Assembly (NCBI GenBank): GCA_017455785.1
Contig: JAFSYZ010000014.1
Location: forward strand, 1 to 13,685
DNA: 13,685 bases
Direction of reading: 5' to 3'
Source of the DNA: Candidatus Methanomethylophilaceae archaeon
Lineage (GTDB): Archaea > Thermoplasmatota > Thermoplasmata > Methanomassiliicoccales > Methanomethylophilaceae
In this document: in pieces, positions 15 through 13,685 of the stretch
How positions within the stretch are numbered: the stretch's first letter is position 1
Layout: every line of letters starts with the position of its first letter
Translations under genes and position numbers: made by a program
The notes under the pieces: model-generated
Seen by the model: only the letters and a program-made list of their open reading frames with translations
The model's database searches: none
Told to the model about the DNA's origin: nothing

Positions 15-1613
15 GTGAACAAGGGACGTATAGTCGTTGCTTTCATCGTCTTCGCGATATCATTCACGATTGTACAGAGTGCAGACTCTACCTCGGCCAT
101 AAATAATGACGATTTCAAACTATCCATCCCTGGATACGATTGGTCCATACCGATTCAGGCCTACATAGGTAACGGCCATTCCCAAACGTACACACTTTAC
201 ATAACGAACTATACGGACCATACGTTGGATGTATCCTTCCTATATTCTGGAGACAACCCTGATATCTATATTCAAGAGATTGAAAGCATCACGGTTCCAG
301 CGAATAAGGATGGCGGGCCTATCGTAACCGTAGAACAGGATATCACCATCTGTGTGAAGAGTGTCACCGAATCCTGTAATGGCGCCAGATCATTCATCGA
401 TATCCGCGTGGCCGACATCAACGATGACACCATAACGCTCATCCCGCTCGCATTCATCATCAATGTGACTTCGAGTTTCGATGCCTCCGGAAATTACAAT
501 AAATTCTTCGGATTCATCGATAATACCCTCCCTGAACCCTTCAATTCGCCGTTCGTACCGTTCTTCGTTTCCCTGATAGTACTCATACTTGTGACGTTTA
601 TCACAGTGAGACTGGCCGTTCCTGCATTGATAAAGACGGTCGAACAGTACCAGGACAAGAAGACTTCCATCAGGGTCAGAAGACTTCTGACTGTACTGAC
701 ATTGATGATCGCAGTGGCATTGTTCATAGATCCGGGACTCAGGATCCTGGGTGCGAACATCGTGTACATCTATGAAGCGGAAAGGATCGCCACCACCATT
801 CTGATCATACTGGCGGCCATAGCCATCTGGAAGGTCTACACCATTTCGATTATGGCTATCTTAAGGAAACTGAGTGAAGGCAGGGATTCCGATCTTGATC
901 TGAGCCTCATGCCGATATTCTCGTTCATCGGTAAACTTATCCTTTGGGTCGTCGGAACCGCAGCGATCCTTAAACTATACGGATTCGACCTTCAGACCAT
1001 TTTGATAAGTGCGGGATTCGTTACTCTCGGAATCACAATGGGAGCAAAAACGGTCCTTTCACAGTTCTTCAGCGGATTATCATTGCTGCTCACTAAAAGA
1101 TTCGCCGATAATGATTACATCAGTCTCAATGGGAAATACTATATCGTCAAAAAAATCGGCATTATGTATACCGAATTGACAAGTACCAAAAAGGACCGCA
1201 TCATATCCGTACCCAACAATATCATGGAGTCGGCCACACTTGTCAATACCAGTGACAGGATGATCAAGACCTACAGCATCTATATCACAATCAACGTTCC
1301 GTACGAATCGGATCTGAAAAAGATAGAATCCATACTTCTGGAAATGACCCACGAATATGAAGCTATAATGCAGGATGATAAACACAAACCTGTAGTCCGT
1401 CTTACAGAATTCGCAGATTCGAGCATTCAGCTCACACTTAAATTCTTCCTATCGCAGTATGCCAAAACTTCATCCATGATGAAGGCGATTTACATAAGAT
1501 TGAGGGAGAACGGCATCGACATCCCGTTCAACAGAATGGAAGTGGATATAATCGATAAGGACATGTCCGAATATCATACCAAGAACGTCAACGGGGATGA
1601 GTGTAGTGTATGA
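15..1613 (+). CDS. MscS-type mechanosensitive ion channel with extracytoplasmic domain (copy 1)
   Basis: This is a membrane channel of the small-conductance mechanosensitive (MscS) family, which opens under membrane tension to release solutes during osmotic downshock. Residues 5-20 form a hydrophobic signal segment. Residues about 30-175 form a beta-rich extracytoplasmic domain that I do not recognise as a named family, with an Ig-like feel. Membrane segments follow near 178-203, 224-240, 257-277 and 298-320. Residues 327-360 form the Gly/Ala-rich pore helix with the FFSGLSLLLT ending typical of MscS. The beta domain after it carries the hallmark ISVPNN...N (398-411), and an alpha/beta C-terminal domain runs to about 512. 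At 532 residues it is longer than E. coli MscS (286) because of the ectodomain. The GTG start gives a good signal peptide, but the frame stays open to the left edge, so an upstream start is possible. The stop overlaps the next gene by 4 nt. Confidence 0.87.
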   Translation: MNKGRIVVAFIVFAISFTIVQSADSTSAINNDDFKLSIPGYDWSIPIQAYIGNGHSQTYTLYITNYTDHTLDVSFLYSGDNPDIYIQEIESITVPANKDGGPIVTVEQDITICVKSVTESCNGARSFIDIRVADINDDTITLIPLAFIINVTSSFDASGNYNKFFGFIDNTLPEPFNSPFVPFFVSLIVLILVTFITVRLAVPALIKTVEQYQDKKTSIRVRRLLTVLTLMIAVALFIDPGLRILGANIVYIYEAERIATTILIILAAIAIWKVYTISIMAILRKLSEGRDSDLDLSLMPIFSFIGKLILWVVGTAAILKLYGFDLQTILISAGFVTLGITMGAKTVLSQFFSGLSLLLTKRFADNDYISLNGKYYIVKKIGIMYTELTSTKKDRIISVPNNIMESATLVNTSDRMIKTYSIYITINVPYESDLKKIESILLEMTHEYEAIMQDDKHKPVVRLTEFADSSIQLTLKFFLSQYAKTSSMMKAIYIRLRENGIDIPFNRMEVDIIDKDMSEYHTKNVNGDECSV

Positions 1614-3259
1614 CGTCCAAAACGAGGATAGCCTTTTTCTACAATCTAAGTGATATGATATTCATGGATAGGAGGATGGTCATCTTCGCACTCGCCCTCA
1701 TCATGATCTCAGGGGCACTTGTTCCGCTATGCTCCGAGGATACTGATGCAGTCGGTCCCGATGACTACAAGGTATCCATCCCGGGATACGATTGGTCCAT
1801 TCCTATAGAGGCAAACATAGGAAACGGCCATTCCAAGAACTATACCATCTATCTCACCAACCTCTCCGATCATGTGTTGGACATTTCCTTCGTGATCGAG
1901 AATGTGCCTGATGTCATCAGGTACACCCCGATAGATAGCATCACACTCATGCCCGCAGGTGACAAATCGGGCCAGGATATGGCGAAGATCAACTTCGTGA
2001 TATCTGTGATCGAGGTGACCACATCTCAAAGTAATCTGAAATTCTGGTTACAGATACGTGTCTGCGATATCACCGATGATTCGATCACGCTTAAGCCCCT
2101 GTCCTTCGTCATCAATGTGAAATCCAGCTTCGATATGTCCGGAAGCTACAACAAATTCTTCGGATTCATCGATAACACCCTTCCTGAACCCTTCAATACA
2201 CCTTACGTACCATTCTTCGTAACACTGATCGGCTTCGTAATCATAGCATTGATCGTGGTGAGGCTGTTGATCCCTACGCTATCCAAATTCATGGATGGGT
2301 ATACAAAAGGCAATGATCGGAAGAGATTCCAGAAATTACTGACATTGGCCGTACTGTTGATCTCCCTGGCCCTGTTCCTTGATCCAGGATTGAGGATTCT
2401 GGGTGCCGACCTCAGTCTGATATTCTACGTGGAGAAGTTCAGTCTGACGCTACTCATTGTGATCCTTGCCATAACCATATGGAAAGTCTACATAATGGTC
2501 GCCGAGAGTGTACTGAAGAAAATGGGCGAGATGGAGGATTCAAAGATAGATTCCACTCTGCTGCCGATCTTTTCCATGATCGGTAAGCTGTTTCTATGGG
2601 TGGGTGGTATCGCGGCCATCCTGCATGTCCACGGTTTCGACCTGTCAGGTATCCTCCTGAGTGCCGGAATCATATCATTAGGTATCACACTGGGCGCGCA
2701 GAGCGTACTCTCACAGTTCTTCAGCGGAATCTCTCTACTGCTCACCAGACCGTTCGCCAAAGGAGATTATCTCCAGATAGCGGGTGAGACCTATATAGTG
2801 AAGAGGGTTAAGCTCATGTACACCGAGTTCACCGGTACCGATAAGGACCGTGTGATCACTATACCCAACAACGTTGTGTCAGGTGCGACCATCGTCAATA
2901 TGACGAAGTATGACAAATCATTCAGGCTCCAGGTCTTCTTCCAGATTCCCTATGACGTGGAAGTGGCTAAGGCGGAGGAGGTCGTCCTCAAGATGGCTGA
3001 GGAAAGCCCTCATGTCATGCACAACTACAACAAGTACAAGAGACCTGCAGTGAGGCTTATAGAATTCCAGGATTCCGGGGTATTGCTGAGATTGGACGTC
3101 ACCATAGCCGATTACGCCAATATGCCCGTCATTCAGTCGGATCTCAAGAAGGAACTGTACATAAGACTGGCAGAGGCCAACATAGAGATGCCGTACAACA
3201 GGCTCGAGGTCACGATAATGAAGGACCAGGATGTTGCACATGATACGAATCCTGCATGA
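1610..3259 (+). CDS. MscS-type mechanosensitive ion channel with extracytoplasmic domain (copy 2)
   Basis: This is a tandem paralogue of the preceding channel with the same layout: signal segment (about 23-40), extracytoplasmic beta-rich domain (50-192), several membrane helices between about 199 and 340, the pore helix (349-380) and the MscS beta domain with ITIPNN (416-421) and a conserved N430. The stretch around residues 172-203 is almost identical to copy 1, including GFIDNTLPEPF, and so is SIPGYDWSIPI near the N terminus. The ATGA overlap at 1610-1613 suggests translational coupling in one operon. Start choice is uncertain: aligning the signal segments of the two paralogues favours the ATG at 1664 (531 residues, against 532 in copy 1), while coupling favours 1610. 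No convincing Shine-Dalgarno site decides it. A GGAGG at 1671-1675 abuts the ATG at 1677 too closely to be usable. Confidence 0.87.
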   Translation: MTSKTRIAFFYNLSDMIFMDRRMVIFALALIMISGALVPLCSEDTDAVGPDDYKVSIPGYDWSIPIEANIGNGHSKNYTIYLTNLSDHVLDISFVIENVPDVIRYTPIDSITLMPAGDKSGQDMAKINFVISVIEVTTSQSNLKFWLQIRVCDITDDSITLKPLSFVINVKSSFDMSGSYNKFFGFIDNTLPEPFNTPYVPFFVTLIGFVIIALIVVRLLIPTLSKFMDGYTKGNDRKRFQKLLTLAVLLISLALFLDPGLRILGADLSLIFYVEKFSLTLLIVILAITIWKVYIMVAESVLKKMGEMEDSKIDSTLLPIFSMIGKLFLWVGGIAAILHVHGFDLSGILLSAGIISLGITLGAQSVLSQFFSGISLLLTRPFAKGDYLQIAGETYIVKRVKLMYTEFTGTDKDRVITIPNNVVSGATIVNMTKYDKSFRLQVFFQIPYDVEVAKAEEVVLKMAEESPHVMHNYNKYKRPAVRLIEFQDSGVLLRLDVTIADYANMPVIQSDLKKELYIRLAEANIEMPYNRLEVTIMKDQDVAHDTNPA

Positions 3260-5645: not shown

Positions 5646-8003
5646 TCATCTCCTCCTGATCAGTAGGAACGCACCAGCGAGAATGACCAGAACAGCTACC
5701 GCTATCGCAACATACATCAATGTCTGATCCTCCGGAATCGGTTCAGGTACGTGATAGACGAAACTAACATTAGCACTAGCTGCCTCCTGCGGTATGGTGA
5801 ATCCTTCCTTTGCGGTCACATCGATCACATGTTCAGACTCATCGTAGTAGTGGATGGATTCATCTTCGAATGATATGTCGGCATCGCATAAGAAGGCCAG
5901 CTTCTTCAGTTGCAAGCAGCTGAATAATGCATTGGACTTCATTGTCTTCACGGAATCAGGCATTATGATCGATTCCAAGTGGGCACATTCACAGAAAGCC
6001 TCATACCCTATCGTCTTCACGGAATCAGGAATCCTATAGATGGTAGCATCCCCTCCGGCCGGATAGCACAGCAATACACTGACGGACTTATCGAACAGGG
6101 CCCCGTTCACGGATGTGTATGTGGCATTATCCTTATCGACTGTGAAGGATTTCAACGAGGTACAACCCTCGAATACACCATCCCCGATGGATTCCACAGA
6201 ACTGCCGATACTGATCTCCTTGAGTGAGGTACAATACTGGAAAGACCCCATATTTATCGCTCTGACTGAATTCGGTATCGATATCGATTCCAAAGAGGAA
6301 CAGCTCCAGAATAAGGAATTCCCGATGGATTCTAAAGATGAGGGCAATTTCACCGAGGTCAGTGATGAACAACTCCAGAACACGATATCGCCCATTGATG
6401 TTACCGATTCCGGGATATCGACTGTAGTAAGGGCAACACATGTCTGGAACAGTCCATCATCCAACAGTGTGATGCCGTCCGGTATATTGACAGAGGTCAA
6501 GGACCTGCATCCTGAGAACACGTACTTCCCTATGGTTCTGACGGAATCGGGCACATCCACTGAAATTAGAGCCGTGCAATCCATGAATATGTTGTCTTTC
6601 AATAATGTCAATCCTTTAGGTAATGTGACTGATTGCAGTGACCTGCATCCGAAGAAAGCACTCTCCTCAATCTCTGTAACGGAATCGGGTATCGAGATGG
6701 ATTTCAACGAAGTACATTCCCAGAAAGTACCGTTTCCGATCTTGTTTATGGAATCCGGTAGTTTGATCGAAACAAGAGCGGAACAGCCTTCGAATGAATT
6801 GGAGTATGTGGCCTCAACGCCCTCTGGAATATCATATTGCGTATCTGTCTTCCCTACCGGGTAGAGTATCAGTACCTTCATCTGTTTATCGAAGAGGACC
6901 CCGTTTTCTGAAGAGAACGTCTCATTTGCCTCATCGACTATGAATCCGGTGAATGCAGTGGAACCGCTTACAGCCGAATTTTTGATCGTCGTTACAGAGG
7001 CTGACAGAGAGACCGACTCCAGTGACGTACATTCGGAGAAAGCAAAGTTTTCAATGGATGTAACGGAATCACCCGTGATGATATGCTTGATTTGTTTGCA
7101 TGAGAGGAACGAATACTGACCTATCGTCGTTGTTGAAGCGGGCGTAGTGTACGTTTCGGCAGTACGCCCTATCGGATATGATATCAATGTCTTTCCTTCT
7201 TTATCGAACAGAACACCGTCTACAGAAGAGTATTGCATGTTATCTTCATCGACATTCAACATTTCAAGAGCATAACATCCGTCGAAAGCATCGGTGTCGA
7301 AGGATGTCACCCCTTTGCCTATAGATGCTGATTTCAGAGAAGTACATCCGCTGAAGGCATGACCGCCTAAGAATGTGAGACCATCACCCAATACCAGTGT
7401 CTCCAGTGATGTACAATCAGCGAAGGCTTGCTGTTTCATGGTTGTGACCGAGTCCGGTATCTCCAAGGATGTCAAAGAGGAGCATTTGAAGAATGCATGG
7501 TCGCCGATACTGATGAGAGAATCGGGTATCTCTAAAGATGACAATGAATAACATTTGTAGAACACGTAGTACTCAATGGATTCCAATGATTCCGGTAGAT
7601 CGATCGACTGTAAAGAGTCGCATTCACTGAACGCATCCGCACCTATGGATGTAACACCCTCAGGGACTACTATGGTCGTTATCGGGATTTTGGAGAATGC
7701 ATACTCGCCGATATATGTCAGACCATTGGGTAATGATACGGTCCTTACCTCGTTACCTCCCCATTTGACATCCTTACTCTTATAGTCATACATCGCACCC
7801 GTACCGGTTATGACCAATTCTCCGTTGGTACTGTCATATGTCCACGTCAGATCATCACCGCACTTACCGGTAACCTCTTTGACGGAATCGGAGTCCGTGC
7901 CTTCAACAATGATCAATGAGAATAATGCAACAGCTACAATCAACACTGCCGAAAAGGACAGCAGTCTTCCAGAGAACGTCCTGAGGACCGATCCGCGTGC
8001 CAT
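5646..8003 (-). CDS. BspA-like leucine-rich-repeat (LRR_5) surface protein, membrane anchored
   Basis: This 785-residue protein has a signal segment (12-33) followed by GTDSDS. An N-terminal BspA-type cap follows (about 46-90: CGDDLTWTYD, LVITGTGAMYDY). A long series of about 23-residue repeats covers about 87-700, of the form IP-DSVTSIG--AF--CTSL. Three repeats are interrupted by the family's typical insertion: GVLFDKEGKTLISYP (263-277), GVLFDKQMKVLILYP (368-382) and GALFDKSVSVLLCYP (634-648). Residues 762-782 form a membrane helix followed by RRR, so the repeats face outside. Bacterial relatives such as BspA bind host or microbial surfaces, and gut methanogens of this type also carry them. 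The start is set by a TATA box 29 nt upstream. The repeats are diverged at DNA level. A binding role is inference. Confidence 0.92.
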   Translation of the reverse strand: MARGSVLRTFSGRLLSFSAVLIVAVALFSLIIVEGTDSDSVKEVTGKCGDDLTWTYDSTNGELVITGTGAMYDYKSKDVKWGGNEVRTVSLPNGLTYIGEYAFSKIPITTIVVPEGVTSIGADAFSECDSLQSIDLPESLESIEYYVFYKCYSLSSLEIPDSLISIGDHAFFKCSSLTSLEIPDSVTTMKQQAFADCTSLETLVLGDGLTFLGGHAFSGCTSLKSASIGKGVTSFDTDAFDGCYALEMLNVDEDNMQYSSVDGVLFDKEGKTLISYPIGRTAETYTTPASTTTIGQYSFLSCKQIKHIITGDSVTSIENFAFSECTSLESVSLSASVTTIKNSAVSGSTAFTGFIVDEANETFSSENGVLFDKQMKVLILYPVGKTDTQYDIPEGVEATYSNSFEGCSALVSIKLPDSINKIGNGTFWECTSLKSISIPDSVTEIEESAFFGCRSLQSVTLPKGLTLLKDNIFMDCTALISVDVPDSVRTIGKYVFSGCRSLTSVNIPDGITLLDDGLFQTCVALTTVDIPESVTSMGDIVFWSCSSLTSVKLPSSLESIGNSLFWSCSSLESISIPNSVRAINMGSFQYCTSLKEISIGSSVESIGDGVFEGCTSLKSFTVDKDNATYTSVNGALFDKSVSVLLCYPAGGDATIYRIPDSVKTIGYEAFCECAHLESIIMPDSVKTMKSNALFSCLQLKKLAFLCDADISFEDESIHYYDESEHVIDVTAKEGFTIPQEAASANVSFVYHVPEPIPEDQTLMYVAIAVAVLVILAGAFLLIRRR

Positions 8004-8036: not shown

Positions 8037-9872
8037 TCAACGGAGCATGCGCACCGCTGGGCATATTTCTAGACATTTACGGCAACCGTTGCATTTCGAT
8101 GCATCTAAGTGAATGCCCTGGTCCTTGAATGTCAATGCGGACCTCTTACAGATGAATATGCATCCCGTGCATTCAAGACAATGTGTGGCCATCAGAGAAA
8201 TATTGAAGATGTCGTCCGCTTTTGAACGAATGCTGCCCTTGTCCCCGTTGATAGCCTTTATCCTTCCATCCCGGGAGATGATCATGTCTCCAACAATTAG
8301 CGAATCCCCGTCCATGCGACCCTTCATCCTGACGATCGGTAGCAACGGCAGTAGTCTGGATGGATCGAAAGGCCTCCCTGAGTACAGGAAATCACCGTCA
8401 TAACGTGTGTTATAATGGGGGATCACCTGTTTTGATTCGATCTCTGCTTGGATATCAGGTCCGACATCGTTTATACGGTCAGGGAGTCTGCGGTATCTCC
8501 AAAGCCTCTTATCGAACCAAACCTGGGGCATTTCCATCCGTTCACCATACTCATTGATGCATTCCTCCCACCGTACAGCGACAGGATCCGTCCATTTGTA
8601 TTGAAGGTGACTCGTCAGAGGCGAAACGGGACAGAGATAGCAGCCTATACGGTCTGATCCTTCCTCGTACAGCTTGTTGTAAGGTGCCTTCTCTCTGGTC
8701 AGGAACATCCATATGTGGAGGGCATTCCATTCCTGAACAGGCGATGCGCATAATTGATTCGGTACCGATGGATTCTTCCATTCACTACCGACGGACATCC
8801 TCATAGTACCCTCGTACCTACGCTGTCCGATGAACGTCAATGATTCCCCTCCGATCATTTGCGACAGTATGTAGAACGGGATGAGCTGATGGACCTTACA
8901 GCACCATCTGAAATCGACCGATGGGGGACCTAGACGCTCGATGTTCCTATATAGGGCATCCTCGGGTATGCCATATGTGATTATCTCCAATCCGTACTTT
9001 TTGGCTATGCCCTTCACAAGACCCGATGACCCGCAATCCATATGCGTGTCTGCATAGATGATCTTAGGTCTGAGACCTGCCTTGACCACCAACAACAGCG
9101 TTGCCAGGCTGTCCTTCCCGCCCGAAAGTGATACGGTCATCGGTATCTTGGGGTGCTTCTTCGCCACCTTGCGTACGAATGATACCGACTTTTGAACGGC
9201 CCTATCAAGGAAAGGTCTGTTGAGTGCAATAGTCTCCTCCCAAGTATGACCTTTCGCCGGAGGACATGATGAAGCTTTGACAGTGAGTGTGTTCCTGACA
9301 ACGATACCGCTGTCCGCCTCCATCATCACCCTGCCGTTCATGGATGCCTTTCCGATGGAGACAGTCCTACCGCCATCATCGATTATGAACACAACATCCC
9401 CTTTCACGATATCCGGATCGGCGGAGATCACATCGGAAGCTGCCAGTCCCTTCTGTCTCCTTGACATGGAGATGCCACGGGATGTGACAGAGATCTTCTT
9501 TCTCTGTACTTTTTCACTCATCAGTGAGGCGGCCTTGGCACTCGGTTCGAATGACCATTTGCCCTCATACGCATAGTAGTCCCCGAGGTCGCATCCGTCA
9601 CTTATGACAGTATATCCCACATCCTTCTTGAAAGCGATACCGAACAGAATTACACGATCGTCCGGGACCATGGCATCGAAAGAACCTTCACCATACGATT
9701 CGTCCACCGTCTTTTTCAGATTCCTACGGTCATAAGGGAAGGCGGGACGTATATCGAAAGGATAATTGATCCTCGGAACCTGACCGTGACATACAGGACA
9801 GGTATCAGAATCAAGGATCGCCAGATTACATTCGTGACACCAGGACAGAACGGAAGGACCGAGGGGCTTCAT
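8037..9872 (-). CDS. APS/PAPS-reductase-like protein with zinc ribbon and C-terminal ferredoxin (copy 1)
   Basis: This 611-residue protein belongs to the PAPS-reductase superfamily. Domains in order: zinc ribbon (C12, C15, C25, C28), a middle region including a PUA-like stretch (about 125-205), a nucleotide-binding domain with SGGKDS (250-255), then two dicluster-ferredoxin cysteine sets (C565, C568, C571, C575 and C594, C597, C600, C604). C324-C325 and C411/C414 match the CC...CxxC signature that holds the [4Fe-4S] cluster in APS reductases, with GQRRYE and the PYN...IGCYLCP context also matching. The family's catalytic C-terminal ECG(I/L)H motif is absent, so sulfonucleotide reduction is not assured. 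A thiol- or sulfur-transfer role is equally possible. It is cytoplasmic, with electrons presumably supplied through the ferredoxin. It is divergent from a full-length paralogue across 92 bp. The ATG is supported by a TATA-like box 28 nt upstream. Confidence 0.86.
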   Translation of the reverse strand: MKPLGPSVLSWCHECNLAILDSDTCPVCHGQVPRINYPFDIRPAFPYDRRNLKKTVDESYGEGSFDAMVPDDRVILFGIAFKKDVGYTVISDGCDLGDYYAYEGKWSFEPSAKAASLMSEKVQRKKISVTSRGISMSRRQKGLAASDVISADPDIVKGDVVFIIDDGGRTVSIGKASMNGRVMMEADSGIVVRNTLTVKASSCPPAKGHTWEETIALNRPFLDRAVQKSVSFVRKVAKKHPKIPMTVSLSGGKDSLATLLLVVKAGLRPKIIYADTHMDCGSSGLVKGIAKKYGLEIITYGIPEDALYRNIERLGPPSVDFRWCCKVHQLIPFYILSQMIGGESLTFIGQRRYEGTMRMSVGSEWKNPSVPNQLCASPVQEWNALHIWMFLTREKAPYNKLYEEGSDRIGCYLCPVSPLTSHLQYKWTDPVAVRWEECINEYGERMEMPQVWFDKRLWRYRRLPDRINDVGPDIQAEIESKQVIPHYNTRYDGDFLYSGRPFDPSRLLPLLPIVRMKGRMDGDSLIVGDMIISRDGRIKAINGDKGSIRSKADDIFNISLMATHCLECTGCIFICKRSALTFKDQGIHLDASKCNGCRKCLEICPAVRMLR

Positions 9873-9964: not shown

Positions 9965-11875
9965 GTGTTCCTTAATCTCGGTAAAAACTGTCTATTCTGG
10001 TGTCGCAACTGCAACATGGCAGTGGTTAGTTCGAACAAATGCCCGAGATGCGGCTCCAAGGCAGAAGAGGTGAAAGCATCCAATCCTGCGGACCTGAGGC
10101 CCGCTTTCAAAAAGGAGACCGAATTGATCCGGAATCTCGTTGATGAAAAATATGGGAGAGGATGCGGACATGACCTGATACCTGATGACCGCACCGTCAT
10201 CATGAATGACAACTCACGTGGCAAGAACTCCGTGGAGATAATCGTAGACGGAAAGATCGTTGGCGTGATGCGGTTCAAATACGATATGAAGTGGCACATC
10301 AACCTCGATCCTCCGGGTTTCGAGATGATCGCACATCATATGGTCCGCTACCGTGTCGTTGCCAATCACAGCGGTTTATTCATGCTGAAGAAGCATAACA
10401 ACCTGATGGTAAAAGGCGTATCCGAATGTGACAAGGATGCGGCGATCGATGACAGAGTCGCTGTATTCTCACCAAAGGGAGATCTCATATGTACTGGAAT
10501 ACTGCGCATCTCCCCTTCCGAGATCGGTAATGCTGAACGCGGTGTCTTCGTTAAGGTGAGGGATTGGTACATCAAAGGCAGTATCGATAGGAGCAGATCG
10601 ACCAATTGGGAACAGACGGTCAGATGGAACTCCAAGATGATGGAACGGATGGTGAAAGAGGCCACATCCTTCATGAAGAAGATGATCAAGGAACATCCGA
10701 ACATCCCTTATGCAATTTCATTCTCAGGCGGTAAGGACAGTCAGGTACTGGTGATGCTGTCCAAGGATGCTAAACTCAAACCCACTATCGTCTTCGCCGA
10801 TACTGGATTGGAATACCCGGAAACAGTGGAATTCGTCAAATCCTATGTCAAGCGTAATAATATGAAGCTGATCGTTGCGGAGGCCTCCTTCGAATCGTTC
10901 CTCAATAATATGAAAACGTTCGGCCCACCGGCAGAAGGTTACAGATGGTGCTGCAAGACCAACAAGCTCAGTGCCATTGCGTCTGCGGAATCTGAGGCCT
11001 TTCCCAACGGATCCCTCCAGTTCATTGGACAACGCAGATATGAGTCTCTGAATAGGATGAGGAACGGAAGGGTCAGTACCAATCCGTGGATGATCAACCA
11101 GATATCCGCATCTCCGATCCAGGAATGGAACGCCCTCCATGTCTGGATGTACATAACGTTGAGGAAGGAACCTTTCAACCCGAAATACGCAGAAGGTATG
11201 CCCCGCATCGGATGTATGCTCTGTCCTTTCATGTCGATCTCCGAGATAGAGATGAACAAAGGTACCTCGGAAAAGTTCGACAGGTGGTATCAAGGTATAG
11301 TCGATTATGGAAAATCCAGAGGTATGCCTGAGGAATGGGTGAAGTATCACTTATGGAGGCACAGAGAGCTTCCGATGGAAGTCTACGATGAGGTGGGGCC
11401 GTTATGCGGGAAAACATATGAGGAACTCACCAAACGTACCCTTCCTCCGGTTAAGGAACCATTGAAGATCAATATCCAATCAGGATACTCACCATGTGTA
11501 CTGGGCTACAGCGTTGAAGCCGGACTCTCTCGTCCTGTCGATATAGCCAGATTGCAAAAGTTCGCTAAGATATTGGGAAAGGAGACCGCCTTGGAAGAGG
11601 GTATGTATGTGTCCATCGGAAACCTCACGGTCTATGCAGAGGGGGCCATAATATCCAAAGGTGATGACCTCAAGGATGTGAAGAGGGCGATACGTTCCGT
11701 CTTCGAACTTCTGGTCAAATCCGAGGAATGCTGCGGATGCAGACAATGCAGTTCCAGATGTCCCACTGGTGCCTTGACTATGGTCTCCGATAGGGTCGAG
11801 ATCGACCCATCCAAATGCATCTCGTGCAGAAGCTGTTTCTGTATGTGTCCCGCACTGAAGTATTCAGCGGAATAA
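9965..11875 (+). CDS. APS/PAPS-reductase-like protein with zinc ribbon and C-terminal ferredoxin (copy 2)
   Basis: This is a 636-residue paralogue of the divergent neighbour with the same domain order: zinc ribbon (C13, C16, C26, C29), a variable middle region, nucleotide-binding SGGKDS (254-259), APS-reductase-type cluster cysteines C329-C330 and C417/C420, GQRRYE (355-360), and two ferredoxin cysteine sets (C589, C592, C595, C599 and C618, C621, C624, C628), both followed by Pro. The catalytic ECG(I/L)H tail of true APS/PAPS reductases is missing. In the stretch where copy 1 has EEC (436-438), this copy has no Cys, so the two may differ in chemistry. The GTG start is the only good one: an in-frame TAA lies at 9944-9946, and the zinc ribbon then begins at the same distance from the start as in copy 1. 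Sulfur or redox metabolism is likely; the exact substrate is unknown. Confidence 0.86.
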   Translation: MFLNLGKNCLFWCRNCNMAVVSSNKCPRCGSKAEEVKASNPADLRPAFKKETELIRNLVDEKYGRGCGHDLIPDDRTVIMNDNSRGKNSVEIIVDGKIVGVMRFKYDMKWHINLDPPGFEMIAHHMVRYRVVANHSGLFMLKKHNNLMVKGVSECDKDAAIDDRVAVFSPKGDLICTGILRISPSEIGNAERGVFVKVRDWYIKGSIDRSRSTNWEQTVRWNSKMMERMVKEATSFMKKMIKEHPNIPYAISFSGGKDSQVLVMLSKDAKLKPTIVFADTGLEYPETVEFVKSYVKRNNMKLIVAEASFESFLNNMKTFGPPAEGYRWCCKTNKLSAIASAESEAFPNGSLQFIGQRRYESLNRMRNGRVSTNPWMINQISASPIQEWNALHVWMYITLRKEPFNPKYAEGMPRIGCMLCPFMSISEIEMNKGTSEKFDRWYQGIVDYGKSRGMPEEWVKYHLWRHRELPMEVYDEVGPLCGKTYEELTKRTLPPVKEPLKINIQSGYSPCVLGYSVEAGLSRPVDIARLQKFAKILGKETALEEGMYVSIGNLTVYAEGAIISKGDDLKDVKRAIRSVFELLVKSEECCGCRQCSSRCPTGALTMVSDRVEIDPSKCISCRSCFCMCPALKYSAE

Positions 11876-11895: not shown

Positions 11896-11904
11896 ATTAT
11901 ATAT
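11896..11904 (+). promoter_or_regulatory. TATA box upstream of the structured-RNA region
   Basis: ATTATATAT sits in an AT-rich patch 20 bp after the stop of the reductase-like gene. With the 27-29 nt spacing seen at the coding genes, transcription would start at about 11918-11926, at or just inside the first hairpin of the RNA region. Confidence 0.45.
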
Positions 11905-11990
11905 TACGTCGAATTCCACCAGGGGGTATCGCCCCCTGGCCCGCCAATAAGGCGGCGTGGTGATGACGGCCTATCGCTAGGCCGAGTGTC

Positions 11991-12079
11991 GTACGGATGT
12001 GTGATTTTTGGTCATACCCCTGTAGGAAATACGGCTTGCGCCGTATGCGCCGGATGGCGCGGACACCCTACTTCCGTAC
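11991..12079 (+). repeat. RNA module 1
   Basis: Outer stem: GTACGGA (11991-11997) with TCCGTAC (12073-12079), 7 bp. Hairpin: GTGTGA (11999-12004) with TCATAC (12012-12017), one G-U pair. Inner stem: GTAGG (12022-12026) with CCTAC (12067-12071). Inside it are a hairpin of ATACGGC/GCCGTAT (12029-12046, loop TTGC) and a hairpin of GCGCC/GGCGC (12047-12060, loop GGAT), followed by GGACAC. Both junctions are compact, with 0 to 4 unpaired bases between helices on most sides. Confidence 0.65.
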
Positions 12080-12134
12080 CGATAGTTGACCCCGCCTGGC
12101 GAGAGTGGCGCGAGGCGCCACTCCCCTAGGAAGT

Positions 12135-12224
12135 GATAGATGTATGATCCCTTACGGGAACAGCTAAACGGGATAACGGCTTTGACGCCGTGTGCGCCGG
12201 ATGGCGCGGACACCCCGATCTATC
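12135..12224 (+). repeat. RNA module 2
   Basis: Outer stem: GATAGAT (12135-12141) with ATCTATC (12218-12224), 7 bp. Hairpin: TCCC/GGGA (12148-12159, loop TTAC). Inner stem: CGGG (12169-12172) with CCCG (12214-12217). Inside it are ACGGC/GCCGT (12176-12191, loop TTTGAC) and GCGCC/GGCGC (12194-12207, loop GGAT), then GGACAC. The last hairpin and the GGACAC strand are the same as in module 1. Confidence 0.65.
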
Positions 12225-12266
12225 CGGGACTGCATTGTTCTACGCCGCCCACATCGCTGAGAACGG

Positions 12267-12355
12267 TATGACAGACGCTCCCGTGGTGGGAGAACTGTAA
12301 CGGGGAGGACGGCTTGCGCCGCTGCGAATTAACGCGGACACCCCGATCTGTTATG
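12267..12355 (+). repeat. RNA module 3
   Basis: Outer stem: TATGACAGA (12267-12275) with TCTGTTATG (12347-12355), 9 bp including two G-U pairs. Hairpin: CTCCC/GGGAG (12278-12292, loop GTGGT). Inner stem: CGGGG (12301-12305) with CCCCG (12341-12345). Inside it are CGGC/GCCG (12310-12321, loop TTGC) and GCG/CGC (12324-12335, loop AATTAA), then GGACA. The G-U pairs would be A-C mismatches on the opposite strand. Confidence 0.65.
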
Positions 12356-12399
12356 AACGAACATGCACTGCCGTGGTGGCAGCACATGTTATGATGCAC

Positions 12400-12475
12400 C
12401 TCATGATAGCACGCGGTGTGCTGCAATGGTGCAACGGCTTACGCCGTGCGCGAACGCGGATACACCAACCATGAG
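12400..12475 (+). repeat. RNA module 4
   Basis: Outer stem: CTCATG (12400-12405) with CATGAG (12470-12475). Hairpin: AGCAC/GTGCT (12408-12422, loop GCGGT). Inner stem: TGGTG (12427-12431) with CACCA (12463-12467). Inside it are ACGGC/GCCGT (12434-12447, loop TTAC) and GCG/CGC (12448-12457, loop CGAA), then GGATA. This is the shortest and most diverged copy, but every helix of the other modules is present. Confidence 0.63.
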
Positions 12476-12560
12476 AACTATCGTCACTAAGTCATCGTGT
12501 TCGGAATCACACCGAACCCACGGTACCAAGTCTCCGAGCCTTTAACAGGAACGGTCGACG

Positions 12561-12762
12561 ACATATTCGTGGTGAATTATGTGTAATACTTGGCAATCCT
12601 CATTATTCAATGCGAGTATATATTTTGTTCCCTACATTTTTTTTCCGTACGATTCAACTTTTCGATCTACTCACCTGTCTGATGGCAATCGATCCTATAG
12701 ATACAATCCTTTTGGGACATTAATTCAATATATTATCTTATTTGTGATAATTGCCACGATAA
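12561..12762. other. AT-rich intergenic spacer
   Basis: No gene is supported here. The base composition drops sharply in GC compared with the RNA region on its left. It holds a TATA-like stretch at about 12616-12625 and a run of eight T's at 12637-12644 that could end the upstream RNA. At 12685-12693 lies one arm of a 9-bp inverted repeat whose partner (12762-12770) borders the transposase remnant. The 71-codon open frame across it has no family features. Confidence 0.5.
12637..12644 (+). terminator. T8 run, possible archaeal terminator of the structured RNA
   Basis: Archaeal RNA polymerase often terminates at T runs without a hairpin. This run of eight T's is the first long one downstream of the structured RNA. 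Its use is unproven. Confidence 0.35.
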
Positions 12763-12770: not shown

Positions 12771-13685
12771 GATTGGGAATGTACTTCTTTCTGAGGCATT
12801 CTTCAGGAAATACGGGTTGGACAGGGTCATTTCCGATCTGAAGACCAAAGGTATCGATCTTTCCAAACTTGCAGAGTTGATGGGGCGTACAAGCTCGGTG
12901 ATAACATCAGCATATTCAAGGCACATGAATTCATCATGGAACCGGCATAAGAGACCGGTTCCGTCTTGATGAATTCAATGTGAAGACGTTGTACCGTGCT
13001 GTGGAGAGATTGGGGCAGAACAGGGAAAGGATAGTCGCTGCCTTCAGGCAGCGCATCCTTTCCGAGTACGGTCAGCAGATGTCGGATGTTATCTTCGATT
13101 GGACATCCCTGGTGTATTTCGGATACAAGCCCCAATTGGCAATGAGGGGGCATTCCAAGGATGGACATCCGGAGGAGTGCCAGATGACCATCGGTATTGC
13201 ACAGGCGGCGAAGCCCCTGTGCATCCCCATAGGTCTTACTGTAATGCCGGGGAACACCCATGATTCCAAGCATATGGTGCAATCCTATGCCCAGGTGAAG
13301 GATGACCTCAGGAAAGATACCAATATGATATTCGATGCGGGGGCCAACTGCAAGGATGTGCTTGATCGGATCGTTCTGGATGGTAACAATTTCCTGACCA
13401 GGAAGAAGCTGAACAAGTCCGATGACAAGCTTTTCCGGACATTCTCCGAGGACACGTGGGAATGTGTGGACAGGGAAAGAGGGGAGTACTGTCTGAAGAA
13501 GAAGTTCCCTTCAAGAGTGAACTACTACTTCTTCAGCCGGGAGCTGTACGATCCCAATATGGCGGCAAGGAAGAAGAAGGCCGACAGGCTGTACCGCGAA
13601 GCGGTCAGCCTGCAGGCAGATCTCGACAAAGGGAAGAAACTGAAGAAGAGGTACGAGATAGGTAACGACCTGATAGAAGCGCACA
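12766..13685 (+). pseudogene. IS1634-like (DDE) transposase remnant: 5'-truncated, frameshifted, runs off the window
   Basis: Three reading frames joined end to end read as one transposase. Frame A (about 12766-12885) encodes FFRKYGLDRVISDLKTKG and LSKLAELM. Frame B (12885-12947) encodes AYKLGDNISIFKAHEFI and ends at TAA 12948-12950. Frame C (about 12950 to the edge) encodes RDRFRLDEFNVKTLYRAVE, then DVIFDWTSLVYFGY with the first catalytic Asp, KDGHPEECQ, GLTVMPGNTHDSK, and IFDAGANCKDVLDRI with the second Asp. This order and these motifs match the IS1634 group of DDE transposases. The third acidic residue would lie beyond the window. No start codon or usual N-terminal region is present, because a TAA at 12760-12762 precedes the coding homology. 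Two frame changes (near 12885 and 12948) make it inactive unless rescued. Family assignment is from memory of motifs. Confidence 0.75.
12926..12977. repeat. 52-bp near-perfect inverted repeat inside the transposase remnant
   Basis: TGAATTCATCA (12926-12936) pairs with TGATGAATTCA (12967-12977), and GGAACCGG (12938-12945) pairs with CCGGTTCC (12955-12962). That gives 19 paired positions around a 9-nt loop, with a 1-nt/4-nt internal loop. The second frame break of the transposase falls in or beside the loop. Confidence 0.6.

Follow-up and report, generated by a model that had tools for sequence, protein, structure and literature searches.

A predicted large non-coding RNA with a conserved 5' domain and variable bodies in Methanomassiliicoccales

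Introduction

The OLE RNA is large and structured and has protein partners. According to PMC12286853, large ornate RNAs occur in bacteria and phages, and little of their function is understood. In that text, GOLLD is often found near tRNA islands and sometimes has tRNAs in the linker, ROOL is structured, about 660 nt long and located near tRNA islands, and the GOLLD, ROOL and OLE profiles are those of Rfam (PMC12286853).

The locus described here belongs to a gut methanogen, Candidatus Methanomethylophilaceae archaeon (assembly GCA_017455785.1, genome G000 below). The window, i.e. the whole stretch of DNA that was analysed, comprises 13,685 nt of contig JAFSYZ010000014.1. Like GOLLD, as presented in the text cited above, the archaeal RNA is large and structured and has one conserved end, the rest being less conserved; with ROOL, as presented there, it shares the structure, a length of around 660 nt and tRNA islands nearby. 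In contrast to GOLLD, which is conserved at the 3' end in that description, the archaeal RNA is conserved at the 5' end, has linked PUA genes and gives no Rfam match. It differs from ROOL in its repeated modules, its variable body and the lack of an Rfam match, and from OLE, likewise large and structured, in layout, hosts and, again, the lack of an Rfam match. The likeness to GOLLD and ROOL is one of layout, and the archaeal RNA is not assigned to either family. On the best reading it would be categorically new as an RNA class, with the large ornate RNAs as its nearest analogy by kind.

Comparison with known RNAs

A large multidomain non-coding RNA of no known family, with compensatory changes, had been proposed for this locus by the first-pass annotation, and both the Rfam scans and the pair counts given below support it. 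No Rfam 15 model matched the window at the gathering score, and the window element gave one chance-level match at E up to 10. Among the other copies (the G051 copy left out), tRNA alone reached the gathering level, and the covariance models of GOLLD, ROOL and OLE gave no match in the Rfam scans. The RNA had no blastn match in phage records and four short chance-level blastn matches in plasmid records, and two exact RNA patterns were absent from viral contigs at the sensitivity used; the copies come from archaeal genome assemblies, which may include provirus. An H/ACA guide RNA was dropped because the ACA sits inside a module, and group I and group II introns because no intron end motifs were seen by eye. 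Among the matches listed from open-licence PubMed Central papers, no earlier report of the archaeal RNA was found.

Extent and parts of the RNA element

The limits of the element were set by a diverged second copy on another contig of the same genome (G000:C78; 89% and 82% identity, blastn), as the flanks of the two copies differ outside approximately 11905-12596. The initially delimited element, 11919-12560, is structured but too narrow. Open reading frames crossing 11919-12560 have at most 104 aa. The following parts are given in the sense of the minus strand, for which the evidence is presented below.

12617 to 12624, minus strand: TATA-like box AATATATA, about 24 nt upstream of the edge of the conserved domain.
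11905 to 12596, minus strand: whole large RNA, with the predicted 5' end near 12596 and the predicted 3' end near 11905.
12488 to 12596, minus strand: conserved 5' domain, a three-way junction (H3, H4, H5) with GGAGA and UCGACC, then hairpin H1/H2 (covariance models R2 and R3, pair counts).
12526 to 12593, minus strand: closing helix H3, in which CCAAG (12593-12589) pairs with CUUGG (12530-12526).
12400 to 12475, minus strand: module 4, outer stem CUCAUG/CAUGAG, core 12467-12427, GUAA tetraloop.
12267 to 12355, minus strand: module 3, core 12345-12301, GCAA tetraloop.
12135 to 12224, minus strand: module 2, layout as in the other modules, X loop GUCAAA (not GNRA), side hairpin with a GUAA tetraloop.
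11991 to 12079, minus strand: module 1, core 12071-12022, GCAA tetraloop.
11905 to 11990, minus strand: 3' domain with a GCGA-capped hairpin, a CCGCC-UUAUU-GGCGG hairpin and a strong GC hairpin at 11920-11938 near the 3' end.

The four modules, each a nested three-way junction, are present where they had first been placed, with the stems listed then. Compared with dinucleotide shuffles, the window element has a fold z of -6.7 (plus strand, 20 shuffles); a repeat with 16 shuffles gave -6.2 on the plus and -7.8 on the minus strand. In the hairpin domain 11919-11990, stem changes between the window and C78 are matched, e.g. CCAGG/CCUGG to CCGGG/CCCGG, and a few stem positions lose their pairing in C78. 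In this second copy, modules 3 and 4 are separated by an insertion.

Conserved 5' domain and distribution of the family

A third copy, in another genus, was found by blastn in 147 genomes of the order; its ends are conserved and its middle is different. Further copies were found with R2, a covariance model built from the conserved end (about 110 nt) of three copies, and a later model, R3, was built from 11 copies. By R3, and after inspection, 18 copies were accepted, 11 of which had built the model; they belong to 6 of the 147 genomes of the order and to four genera (six copies in G000, seven in G122, two in G127, and one each in G120, G054 and G051). Over 389 genomes from the phylum, R3 matched in four; those in G000 and G054 were accepted and that in G323 (E 0.039) was not counted. 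The two scans, each of more than 40 genomes, were run under stricter filtering, with which weak matches are lost, and the assemblies are incomplete and for the most part fragmented. Weak copies, with E values of 1e-3 to 0.04 per genome, were accepted because all have GGAGA and the closing helix and 17 of the 18 copies have UCGACC. An R3 match in G061, present in both scans, was rejected, as it sits in a reading frame resembling MscS by eye.

The GGAGA sequence is present in 18 of 18 copies, and in the G051 copy UCGACC is replaced by UCGCCC. In the alignment of the 18 copies, 92.5% of 358 cells are paired, compared with at most 43.0% when the pairing partners are slid by one to three columns; 19 of the 22 pairs are changed on both sides (at most 8 in the slid control), as are 68 cells (at most 13). 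The earlier alignment of 11 copies had 93.4% of cells paired, with 16 of 22 pairs and 36 cells changed on both sides; both sets of figures are to be read with the fact that each alignment (A10 and A12) had been adjusted to the structure, itself drawn from three copies. The structure of the 5' domain was not recovered by RNAalifold from a structure-blind MAFFT alignment, in which the copies with CCUAU/AUAGG are out of register. When no alignment is used, all 18 copies have a helix of five pairs or more, changing in sequence, after GGAGA. Variants of H3 are CCAAG/CUUGG, CCUA/UAGG, UCAAA/UUUGA, ACAAA/UUUGU, CCAAA/UUUGG and ACCAA/UUGGU; in G122:C11b the program chose another, longest pairing, and CCUA/UAGG is present. 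At the computational level, the family, the fold of its 5' domain, the recurrence of the modules and the gene linkage are shown. A helix closing the RNA between its 5' and 3' ends (CGUCGA/UCGACG) fits three copies in two registers, is not visible elsewhere and is not claimed.

The modules recur within the window; the part that is conserved across the family is the end at 12488-12596, not the modules.

Gene pair adjoining the RNA

Two genes with the same domain composition lie beside the RNA in the window.

9965 to 11875, plus strand: gene B, 636 aa, PUA, PAPS_reduct (PP-loop SGGKDS) and 4Fe-4S, convergent with the RNA.
8037 to 9872, minus strand: gene A, 611 aa, PUA, PAPS_reduct and 4Fe-4S, divergent from B.

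The SGGKDS motif is intact in both. Two further stretches of the window (15-3259 and 5646-8003) encode two similar membrane proteins in tandem, of which the first has MscS channel domains, as well as a BspA-type LRR protein.

B has relatives throughout the order (41 of 41 genomes). Accessory gene A, counted at 55% identity or more in a survey of 102 genomes of the family that was done with A, is restricted to three, G000, G127 and G122, the next best match having 37%. In a large protein set the close clade of A comprises 17 clusters at 44% or more, followed by a gap down to 35% (among the matches listed). Gene A of the window is 56% identical to its G127 counterpart, and gene B is 64% identical to its partner in G127 (over 407 positions, a partial gene) and 70% to that in G122 (over 636). 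The closest NCBIfam family of B is PRK13795 (2.4e-141), which has the same PAPS-reductase PP-loop, as do BrxP (4.1e-49 for B) and DndC-SspD; BrxP is also described as having a ferredoxin-type region (PMC12839542). With respect to PRK13795, BrxP and DndC-SspD, genes A and B stay below the NCBIfam cut-offs and carry PUA and 4Fe-4S domains. PADLOC matched B to BrxP, SspD and DndC, and A to BrxP and DndC; among the annotated window ORFs, no other BREX or Dnd genes were noticed, the only genes of this kind being PAPS-reductase-like. In NCBIfam, the archaeal PUA and PAPS-reductase family is named hypothetical. Gene B had no match in viral contigs.

In all three genomes with accessory gene A, an RNA copy adjoins the A/B pair. 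The RNA follows B in the window and is found on the far side of A in G127 and G122, and in each case it is convergent with the neighbouring gene if it lies on the strand argued for below. A fourth gene-linked copy, G000:C129, begins about 115 nt past a PUA gene of the same family. The protein encoded directly before this copy (L281 3680-4684) has 334 aa and a PUA domain and resembles PRK13795; PP-loop and ferredoxin domains gave no match in it. No gene of the PUA family was seen adjoining the other 14 of the 18 copies. Given these 14 copies and the three RNA-bearing genomes in which accessory A was not found as far as searched (G120, G054 and G051), the protein would not always be needed in cis.

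The link between A/B and the RNA is a genetic association; binding is suggested by the PUA domain. As the linked gene pair carries PUA RNA-binding domains, a multivalent protein-binding scaffold is a plausible role for the RNA. The alternative of an RNA-only cage as in GOLLD and ROOL, with A and B merely as neighbours, is unlikely in our estimate: the absence of accessory A from half of the RNA-bearing genomes would fit it, as would the layout, alike in words (a conserved end, a variable rest, and tRNAs in the linker or nearby; PMC12286853), but the 3/3 linkage of a rare gene pair to the RNA would need another cause.

Variable bodies and tRNA genes

The bodies behind the 5' domain vary between copies and consist of GNRA three-way modules, hairpin arrays or tRNAs. 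The module array described in the first-pass annotation is real in the window and is only one among several bodies of the family. The body of G122:C17 has four identical hairpins at a spacing of 34 nt, and that of the G120 copy has one hairpin in three copies. In G122:C21 (L287; L280 598-1142), the 5' domain is followed by three tRNA-Cys(GCA) genes, which are the sole full-length tRNA-Cys matches in this genome (blastn; genome 87% complete). Two weaker tRNA matches (42.4 and 30.8 bits) follow the 5' domain in G000:C26.

The core of a module on the minus strand is a stem around two hairpins, the GC hairpin Y and the GNRA-looped hairpin X. The stems vary (CGGGG/CCCCG, AAGGA/UCCUU, CUGAGCAG/CUGCUCAG) and the layout is constant. 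A descriptor of this core had 11 matches on the minus strand, in 5 of 16 elements (three in the window, four in G127:C5, two in G054, and one each in G122:C12 and G120), and one on the plus strand, compared with a mean of 0.46 and a maximum of 2 in 100 shuffles. It was written after the modules of the window, G122 and G127 had been seen, and eight matches remain without the three of the window. None was found in the other 11 of 16 elements, including C78, the near-copy of the window. By this descriptor, GNRA three-way modules recur in two genera.

Module-core pattern matches in the genome and viral collections (89 and 75 stretches) were treated as chance, because no stretch had two matches among the 80 of 89 and 75 of 75 listed. 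With R1, a model of the modules only, 12 other genomes of the 102 had one or two matches each; of the two best, L195 falls in a coding frame, and L194 is isolated and seems intergenic by eye.

Such bodies could also be read as the precursor of a tRNA island, i.e. a leader followed by tRNA and decayed tRNA units, in which the modules would be degenerate tRNA-derived hairpins and A and B sulfur-transfer enzymes acting on the released tRNAs. The tRNA-Cys genes of G122:C21 and the weaker matches of G000:C26 are consistent with this, as are tRNA genes no more than about 200 nt away from the 5' domain in G000:C26, G000:C127 and G122:C3, a tRNA gene about 80 nt past the RNA 3' end in G120, and T-arm-like hairpins seen by eye in C116, G127:C212, G051 and G122:C17. 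A body made of tRNA genes was nevertheless not found, G122:C21 and G000:C26 corresponding to it in part. ARAGORN placed a tRNA inside the body in 2 of the 18 copies, three copies reaching or nearly reaching a contig end, and there is no tRNA gene in the window or in C78. Moreover, decay would not keep GNRA-looped three-way modules recurring in two genera, and we regard the precursor as rather improbable.

The ordinary tRNA genes close to the 5' domain of three copies and past the 3' end of the G120 copy are those at L254 1-74, L276 1263-1336, L255 4415-4487 and L257 3841-3917. Downstream of the short RNA copy in G000:C116, there is a sub-threshold match to sR1, an archaeal C/D box sRNA (L275 1308-1361, i.e. 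G000:C116 7781-7834, minus strand; 34.0 bits, gathering 45).

Dispersed copies

The family thus comprises several dispersed copies in some genomes, with a common 5' domain and differing bodies. Four copies in G122 (C11a, C11b, C3 and C24) are near-identical. Two near-identical short RNA copies are located 1.7 kb apart (L253 65-174 and 1729-1836), and several copies are near contig ends, as expected for assembly-breaking repeats. An IS1634-like transposase ORF (12980-13684; 85.3 bits, cut-off 100) runs off the end of the window.

Dispersal in G000 and G122, the near-identical G122 copies and the nearby transposase ORF would suit a mobile DNA element of the MITE type, in which the structure would be a feature of the DNA or of transposition and the RNA reading incidental. 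Such an element is very improbable here, as the copies keep the TATA-like box and a covarying end and vary inside; a shared terminal inverted repeat was not noticed on casual inspection of the copies.

Coding strand and promoter

Pairings drawn for one strand have a counterpart on its complement, and the strand of the RNA was therefore tested. GNRA loops were counted among 88 four-base hairpin loops of 16 copies (perfect stems of four or more pairs; C11a and C24, which are truncated at contig ends, were excluded): 26 of the 88 are GNRA on the minus strand and 6 on the plus strand, even chance giving 88/32 = 2.75. In the window alone, the counts are 5 of 9 and 0 of 9.

A TATA-like box is present upstream of the domain on the minus strand in 15 of 18 copies, with the best match starting at -27 to -21; in 2000 shuffles the mean was 3.9 and the maximum 10, with the range picked after looking, ties counted and the four near-identical G122 copies included. 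The embedded tRNA genes of G122:C21 and G000:C26 are read in the minus sense as well. A motif TTTSTACATTCACTGA about 56 nt upstream of the domain has copies in L253, L256, L255, L287 and L258 (14-16 of 16 letters), is partial in G122 C17 and C12 (12 of 16), and is absent from the other eleven copies.

The minimum free energy is lower on the minus strand in 13 of 16 elements, in seven of them by less than 4 kcal/mol, and lower on the plus strand in 3 of 16; the fold z favours the plus strand in 5 of 16. When the window modules were folded singly, all four had the described layout or nearly so on the minus strand, module 1 without its side hairpin; plus-strand folding gave it for modules 1 and 3, roughly for module 2 and not for module 4.

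We conclude that the RNA is very probably encoded on the minus strand; strand and promoter are both well supported. The plus-strand multidomain RNA of the first-pass annotation is most improbable, since GNRA loops, the promoter position across copies and the tRNA sense all oppose it. In its favour are the slightly better plus-strand fold of modules 1, 3 and 4 and a TATA-like stretch TTATATAT at 11897-11904, immediately ahead of where the window copy would begin in the plus sense; G-U versus A-C counts do not settle the strand (8 vs 12 and 15 vs 18). In seven other copies, the sequence upstream in the plus sense has no box at a shared position by eye. With the minus strand, the conserved end becomes the 5' domain and the 3' end of the RNA faces the tail of gene B.

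Proposed working and significance

We consider it fairly probable that the locus encodes a minus-strand non-coding RNA of about 690 nt from a new archaeal family, with a scaffold body and likely forming a ribonucleoprotein with A and B. The RNA would be transcribed from its own TATA-like promoter. Its 5' domain, in which CCAAG/CUUGG closes a three-way junction and GGAGA is invariant, would fold as the recognition part of the family. The body, predicted as tandem three-way modules, most of them GNRA-capped, followed by a GC-hairpin 3' end, may pack through its repeated GNRA-rich units into a compact tertiary scaffold. Where present, A and B could bind the RNA or its tRNA-like modules, as their PUA, PP-loop ATP pyrophosphatase and 4Fe-4S domains suggest, and the PP-loop and 4Fe-4S families point to a possible transfer of sulfur to RNA. 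Transcription, protein binding and the scaffold role are predictions. More tentatively, the family may represent a new archaeal ribonucleoprotein system with a constant 5' domain, interchangeable bodies and a dedicated PUA/PP-loop/4Fe-4S pair that modifies or displays RNA cargo.

If this holds, the archaeal RNA would form a class separate from the large ornate RNAs of bacteria and phages, multi-copy and with a variable modular body. The gene linkage provides a candidate protein partner, which makes the function of the RNA directly testable, and may give a role to the accessory members of the archaeal PUA and PAPS-reductase family.
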